Shown here one piece after another: positions 46,083 to 47,811 of a stretch of 64,000 nt of DNA. Positions within the stretch are counted from its first letter, which is position 1. The number at the start of each line of letters is the position of its first letter. A program made the translations under genes and the position numbers. Below the pieces are notes generated by a model. The model was not told where the DNA came from, searched no databases, and worked only from the letters and a program-made list of their open reading frames with translations. This DNA is from Pegea sp. RAD2-039 (Eukaryota; Chordata; Thaliacea; Salpida; Salpidae). The DNA lies in contig JAQGEQ010000071.1 in assembly GCA_034620365.1 (NCBI GenBank), positions 1,426,001 to 1,490,000 on the forward strand, read 5' to 3'.

Positions 46083-47811
46083 TCACTTCTTGCCAGCAGC
46101 CTTCTTGGCAGATTTGGTTTCTTTAGTTGCAGCCTCCTTTTTCACAACTGACTTGATGACACCGACAGCAACAGTTTGTCTCATGTCACGGACAGCAAAT
46201 CGACCTGAACAAGCAAGCAGCATGTTAATCGTTGCCTACATCACTTTAACTACTCGCTACTTACCCAATGGAGGATAACTGGAGAAGCTCTCAACACACA
46301 TGGGTTTGGATGGAGTGAGAACAACCATAGCAGCATCACCAGATTTTACAAACTTAGGATTATCTTCCATCTTCTTACCAGAACGACGATCAATTTTTTC
46401 CTTGAGTTCAGTGAATTTGCAAGCAATATGAGCTGTGTGACAATCAAGTACTGGTTGGTATCCAGCACAAATTTGTCCAGGATGGTTGAGAACAATAACC
46501 TGAAAGACAAATTGATTTAGTCATCAGTTCTTCAATATCAACTCTTCAACTTACTTGAGCAGTGAAGTTCTCGGTCTGCTTGGGTGGGTCGTTCTTGCTG
46601 TTACCAGCAACCATACCACGACGGATATCTTTGACAGAGACGTTCTTGACGTTGAAACCAACGTTGTCACCAGGATTAGCTTCTGGTAGAGATTCATGAT
46701 GCATCTCAACTGATTTGACTTCAGTGGTGATGTTAGCTGGAGCAAATGTGACTACCATGGCTGGTTTGATGATACCAGTTTCGACACGTCCTACTGGCAC
46801 AGTTCCAATACCTAAATAACAAGATGTTCAGATAAATATCAACCAGCAATTGGTGACAAGTGAACCAACCTCCAATCTTGTAAACATCTTGCAATGGAAG
46901 ACGAAGAGGTTTGTCTGAGGGACGTTTTGGAGGAAGAATAGCATCCAAAGCATTCAACAAAGTCTTGCCGGAAGCATTTCCTTCCTTGCGTTCAACAGAC
47001 CATCCCTTGTACCAGGCCATGTTAACGGAAGGTTCAATCATGTTGTCTCCATGCCATCCAGAGATAGGAACAAATGCAACAGTCTTAGGGTTGTATCCAA
47101 CCTTCTTCAAGTAAGTTGATACTTCCTTTTGGATTTCCTCGAAACGAGCACTTGAGTATTTAGGCTCAGTGCTATCCATCTTGTTGATACCACAGATCAA
47201 CTGTTTGACTCCAAGAGTATAAGCAAGAAGAGCATGTTCTCTAGTTTGACCATTCTTTGAGATACCAGCTTCAAATTCACCAACACCAGCAGCTACGATG
47301 AGAACAGCACAATCAGCCTGAAAGTTGAAACTAAATGTTACTTTTCAAGTAATCAATTTCAAAATCAAAAATGATTATTGAAATATTTCAGAAGAAGTCA
47401 GTCATCACAGTTATTAAGACTGGGGCGACATTCAAATCATCATAGGAATACTACATCATCACATTTCATTCAAATTAATCTTACCTGTGAAGTTCCAGTG
47501 ATCATGTTCTTGATGAAATCACGATGTCCAGGGGCATCAATGATGGTGACATAGTATTTGGAAGTCTCAAATTTCCACAGAGCGATATCAATAGTGATAC
47601 CACGTTCACGTTCAGCCTTCAATTTGTCCAACACCCAAGCATACTTGAAGGATCCTTTACCCATCTCAGCAGCTTCCTTCTCGAATTTTTCAATGGTACG
47701 TTTGTCGATTCCACCGCACTTATAGATCAAGTGACCAGTGGTGGTCGACTTACCAGAGTCGACGTGACCAATTACAACAATGTTAATATGAGTTTTGTCG
47801 TCTTTACCCAT
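46083..47811 (-). CDS. EEF1A: Translation elongation factor 1-alpha (eEF1A)
   Basis: The GTPase that delivers aminoacyl-tRNA to the ribosomal A site. Five coding exons: 47485-47811, 46870-47317, 46555-46811, 46265-46499 and 46083-46204, all GT-AG and in frame, giving 462 residues as in other animals. G1 is [10 protein letters not shown]3 is [12 protein letters not shown], and G4 is NKMDST. Domains II and III follow ([31 protein letters not shown]), and the tail is Lys/Ala-rich ([10 protein letters not shown]). Introns 2-4 are only 55-60 nt; intron 1 (167 nt) carries a C/D snoRNA. The coding start lies in an exon whose acceptor is ATGGCAG at about 47843-47849, so there is a 5'-UTR intron. The 3' end is probably near 45.68 kb. 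Confidence 0.99.
47379..47468 (-). ncRNA. C/D-box snoRNA in eEF1A intron 1
   Basis: A 90-nt segment of the intron has the elements of a box C/D methylation guide, in order: terminal stem TGAAAT, box C GTGATGA, guide TGTCGCCCCAGT, box D' CTTA, box C' TGTGATGA, a short spacer, box D CTGA, and closing stem ATTTCA. The guide pairs over 13 consecutive bases (two G-U) with the 28S rRNA stretch GGCTGGGGCGGCA, present in the rRNA fragment of this window at 54483-54495 (minus). By the D'+5 rule the predicted methylated base is the second G of the GGGG run (54490). Intronic placement in a translation gene is typical for animals. The exact ends are inferred. Confidence 0.65.

Follow-up and report, generated by a model that had tools for sequence, protein, structure and literature searches.

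The first coding intron of eEF1A very probably carries a SNORD31-type box C/D snoRNA directed at 28S rRNA

The first coding intron of the eEF1A gene contains a sequence that matches the SNORD31/U31 family over its full length. With a probability of about 0.93, we consider the RNA encoded in this intron to be the organism's SNORD31 (U31/snR67-type) box C/D snoRNA, which would be released by splicing and would direct methylation of the second G of a GGGG run in 28S rRNA. The gene lies on the minus strand of the window, i.e. the whole 64-kb stretch of DNA that was analysed. An intronic C/D snoRNA had already been proposed at this place by a sequence-only reading; its position on the minus strand within the intron (47484..47318) and its boxes D', C' and D were confirmed, and the Rfam search assigned it to SNORD31. 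We regard the snoRNA as genuine and as an ordinary representative of a known family, in a host of an unremarkable kind. The features on which the analysis is based are as follows.

46083..47811, minus strand: eEF1A gene from ATG to stop, 5 coding exons, 462 aa (spliced translation)
47318..47484, minus strand: host intron 1 (GT...AG, 167 nt), the first in the coding region of eEF1A (spliced translation)
47384..47450, minus strand: SNORD31/U31 box C/D snoRNA core; length 67 nt in the alignment to the complete model (Rfam RF00089, 40.0 bits, model positions 1-69 of 69)
47437..47443, minus strand: box C, ATGATGA (sequence; aligned to box C of RF00089)
47418..47430, minus strand: D' guide TGTCGCCCCAGTC, the last base of which is the first base of D' (13 of 13 bases paired to 28S, 11 Watson-Crick and 2 G-U)
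47415..47418, minus strand: box D', CTTA, differing from CTGA by one base (aligned to D' of RF00089)
47402..47408, minus strand: box C', GTGATGA (sequence and family alignment)
47388..47391, minus strand: box D, CTGA (sequence and family alignment)
47456..47462, minus strand: upstream GTGATGA, which would be box C given an earlier proposed end at 47468; outside the family match, which starts at 47450 (sequence)
47463..47468, minus strand: 5' arm TGAAAT of an outer stem, with the 3' arm ATTTCA at 47384-47379 (sequence; formed in both the MFE and the centroid structure of 47379-47468)
54483..54495, minus strand: 28S target GGCTGGGGCGGCA with the predicted methylated base at 54490, inside a partial 28S copy (pairing)

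The family match is the central piece of evidence. The score of 40.0 bits equals exactly the gathering cut-off of RF00089 (40 bits), and the corresponding E-value was 1.6e-5 for the 64-kb window searched with 4227 Rfam families and 7.5e-8 for a segment of 301 nt. Compared with the SNORD31 consensus as printed, 44 of the 69 model positions are identical in the eEF1A-intron RNA. The models for snoU31b, Dictyostelium DdR13 and Caenorhabditis ceN63 also align across this guide, with scores short of their respective cut-offs (29.7 bits for snoU31b, RF01285, with a cut-off of 37). Boxes C (ATGATGA) and D (CTGA) agree with the consensus; box D' deviates from it by one base, and the resulting CUUA is also found in the consensus of RF01285. 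The case for SNORD31 is built on boxes and pairing together, which is what the Rfam E-value measures.

The guide upstream of D' is complementary to the 28S sequence at 54495-54483 without interruption, and the duplex has a calculated energy of -26.0 kcal/mol (14-mer 47431-47418). According to the fifth-base rule for C/D-guided methylation, as given in an excerpt of PMC8162545, the modified base lies opposite the fifth nucleotide upstream of D', which here faces G 54490, the second G of GGGG in GGCTGGGGCGGCA. The 13-base pairing with two G-U pairs and the same target nucleotide had been predicted before, and both were recovered. In the part of PMC3511168 dealing with these guides, U31 (RF00089) is assigned to human Gm4166, snR67 to yeast Gm2616 and snoR35 to Arabidopsis Gm2610. 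We take G 54490 to be the same site as human Gm4166, an equivalence that would follow from the shared guide together with box spacing and family identity, not from the numbering of human or yeast 28S rRNA.

The 28S sequence itself is a partial copy at 53753-54737 on the minus strand (LSU_rRNA_eukarya, 807 bits, model positions 2391-3399 of 3401) and may be an orphan rDNA fragment. Its presence in the same 64-kb window as the guide is, in our view, incidental. A second guide upstream of box D was also considered. The best ungapped matches, G-U pairs included, were 9/9, 9/10, 10/11, 11/12 and 11/13 for lengths of 9-13, none of them convincing; the 9/9 match falls outside the 28S match, and of the rRNAs this part of 28S was covered.

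The boundaries of the RNA differ from those proposed earlier. The sequence-only reading had described an RNA of 90 nt (47379..47468); its boxes D', C' and D and its six-base stem exist, but its box C, its 5' boundary and its size are probably wrong, as the family alignment predicts an RNA of approximately 67-70 nt. An RNA of about 90 nt in which GTGATGA at 47462-47456 would serve as box C and TGAAAT/ATTTCA would form the closing stem is the alternative that retains most weight. In its favour, a perfect GTGATGA lies directly inside a perfect six-base stem, and this outer stem appears in both the MFE and the centroid fold. However, the family alignment begins at 47450 and takes ATGATGA at 47443-47437, 19 nt downstream of the upstream GTGATGA, with the spacing of 9 nt between box C and guide that RF00089 also has (counted by eye). 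For this reason the upstream motif was rejected as the likelier box C. Folding does not assist the longer form, since the whole RNA folds no better than shuffled sequences (z = -0.61 for 90 nt and -0.01 for 70 nt). The stem beside the family box C is weak as well, consisting of five base pairs, GTATT/AATAT, with CCT unpaired (pairing by eye), the outer 6-bp stem being the alternative. Taken together, we judge the 90-nt RNA quite unlikely. The upstream GTGATGA and the TGAAAT/ATTTCA stem may both be parts of the precursor instead, with the stem possibly acting as an external processing stem.

To survey the genome for further copies, the 105.7-Mb assembly (387 contigs) was searched with RF00089; of 20454 first-look candidates, 61 were scored. 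Eight matches with E-values up to 10 were listed among these scored candidates, four at 40 bits and four at 18.6-21.3 bits. The former lie in introns of four eEF1A copies, and no further SNORD31 copy at the cut-off was found outside these introns among the 61 of 20454 candidates scored. The four weak matches were treated as chance after inspection of 200 bases around each. One of them, on contig C141, carries CGCCCCAGTC but appears to lie inside coding sequence (read by eye). Among 14 control genomes, weak RF00089 matches occurred in 13 and the cut-off was reached in none. A search of viral contigs with the box-guide pattern gave two matches; each lies within a long open frame, and neither is matched by an Rfam family.

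Could the sequence be a non-functional SNORD31 relic left in the host intron? A D' box that has drifted to CTTA and a score at the threshold would suit such a relic. Against this, the other three boxes (C, C' and D) match the consensus, the core of the guide is preserved, and the 61 scored candidates contain no other copy at the cut-off. Moreover, U31 is placed among the snoRNAs of the last eukaryotic common ancestor in the section of PMC3511168 on their targets. We therefore regard a relic as very unlikely.

Pairing to 28S alone is weak evidence for a snoRNA, because shuffled sequences reach an equal score and a longer, G-U-rich run exists elsewhere in the intron. When complementarity to 54850-53400 was graded by a crude pairing score, intron 1 obtained 33, a value equalled by the highest among 100 mononucleotide shuffles (mean 24.6); in addition, a 14-base run with four G-U pairs, longer than the guide run, joins the first 14 bases of intron 1 to a different stretch of the 28S segment. 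Both results would be compatible with boxes and complementarity having come together by chance in this AT-rich intron, but this explanation deserves almost no weight, given the Rfam E-value for 64 kb and 4227 families and the frequency of the guide 13-mer, which at up to two mismatches occurs twice in the window (the snoRNA and the complement of its 28S target) compared with an expectation of 0.02.

The place of the sequence within the host gene agrees with the preferred reading, a SNORD31 snoRNA. Introns 2-4 of eEF1A measure 58, 55 and 60 nt, compared with 167 nt for intron 1, and the greater length of intron 1 was counted in favour of a SNORD31 within it. The GC content of the 64-kb window, calculated per 2 kb, ranges from 22 to 39%, and its introns and rRNA mark the stretch as eukaryotic. 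From the end of box D to the last base of intron 1 there are 70 nt. An excerpt of PMC8162545 states that for most C/D snoRNAs the position upstream of the acceptor is conserved, the optimum being approximately 50 nt above the branch point; the observed distance appears compatible with this placement.

Upstream of eEF1A lies a tandem array (48505-50068) with a unit of 231 bp, 6.8 copies and 98% matches. On the eEF1A strand, the unit includes 49 nt that resemble an exon, preceded by TTTCAG and followed by GTAAGT. Upstream of the eEF1A copy at 1185 kb of contig C1 there are two units and part of a third, and the other two eEF1A copies showed only matches of 16-31 bases to the unit within 2.6 kb. 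The array may represent a repeated exon of a neighbouring gene or of a 5' UTR.

With intron 1 as query, four places were found in the genome, three on contig C1 and one on contig C4, each 100% identical over 167 nt and situated between exons 1 and 2 of eEF1A. For the comparison of introns these four copies were used, and eEF1A-like matches on contigs C21, C262 and C246 were left out. Among the four copies, no substitution was seen over the 167 positions of intron 1; introns 2-4 had 4 in 173 positions and the exons 15 in 1389, and intron 4 additionally has a 7-base gap. The invariance of intron 1 was not significant in comparison with introns 2-4 (Fisher p = 0.12) or with the exons (p = 0.39), and identity of the intron was thus rejected as proof of selection. 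As the four copies are near-identical throughout, it cannot serve as evidence of selection, and recent duplication or gene conversion would explain it as well as selection would.

Two of the copies on contig C1 (C1:1184508-1186233 and C1:1192368-1194093) stand in opposite orientation approximately 6 kb apart and some 280 kb from the copy in the window. The copy on contig C4 (C4:1062995-1064713) is near-identical in exons and introns to the three on C1, and its flanks are unmatched: over the 300 bases preceding its ATG it is unlike the C1 copies, and after the stop all four copies differ. It looks as if only the gene body of the C4 copy had been copied or converted.

If the SNORD31 candidate is expressed, splicing of the eEF1A pre-mRNA would release intron 1, and snoRNP proteins would assemble on the C/D and C'/D' motifs and shield the RNA from exonucleases. 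These proteins are 15.5K/SNU13, NOP56, NOP58 and fibrillarin. The D' guide would then pair with 28S GGCTGGGGCGGCA, and fibrillarin would 2'-O-methylate the second G of GGGG.

Among known systems, SNORD31/U31 (RF00089, clan CL00053) is the closest. The eEF1A-intron RNA shares with it the full-length match, the boxes in register, the guide CGCCCCAGUC and the same predicted 28S nucleotide, and differs from it in having CTTA instead of CTGA as box D'. The consensus of snoU31b (RF01285), which we take to be the Drosophila form, has UGUCGCCCCAGUCUUA in common with the eEF1A-intron RNA, including the CUUA D' box, although its model is longer (86 positions). Yeast snR67 (RF01177) and Arabidopsis snoR35 (RF01281) are listed as counterparts of SNORD31 in an excerpt of PMC3511168.

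The host gene is where this case departs from the vertebrate one. In vertebrates, the non-coding U22 host gene (UHG) carries U31 along with the rest of the U25-U31 set, according to an excerpt of PMC7277114, and here the carrier is eEF1A. We found no paper naming eEF1A as a host of SNORD31 in the open-licence literature, outside of which many surveys of invertebrate snoRNAs may lie; the excerpts of PMC7461500, PMC3022908, PMC7518892, PMC6776443 and PMC3941584 that mention eEF1A do not refer to a snoRNA host intron. A more far-reaching account would hold that in this lineage the sole SNORD31 moved into eEF1A and was amplified along with its host to four copies. Provision of one rRNA mark would then depend on transcription and splicing of the main elongation factor, and the outer stem together with the second box C would offer an alternative precursor form; we consider this account unlikely.

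Like the intronic snoRNAs of other broadly expressed, translation-related genes, the SNORD31 candidate is a guide RNA in an intron of a translation gene. According to PMC3511168, the intronic association of snoRNAs is unstable over the eukaryote tree, with snoRNAs still moving within genomes, and a snoRNA host must above all be broadly expressed. An eEF1A host fits both statements. A SNORD31 hosted by eEF1A leaves the general understanding of snoRNAs unchanged, and only its host address is mildly noteworthy. It adds one snoRNA and one host to the record of snoRNA mobility, a case in which an ancient guide and its target are kept while the carrier gene differs from that of vertebrates.
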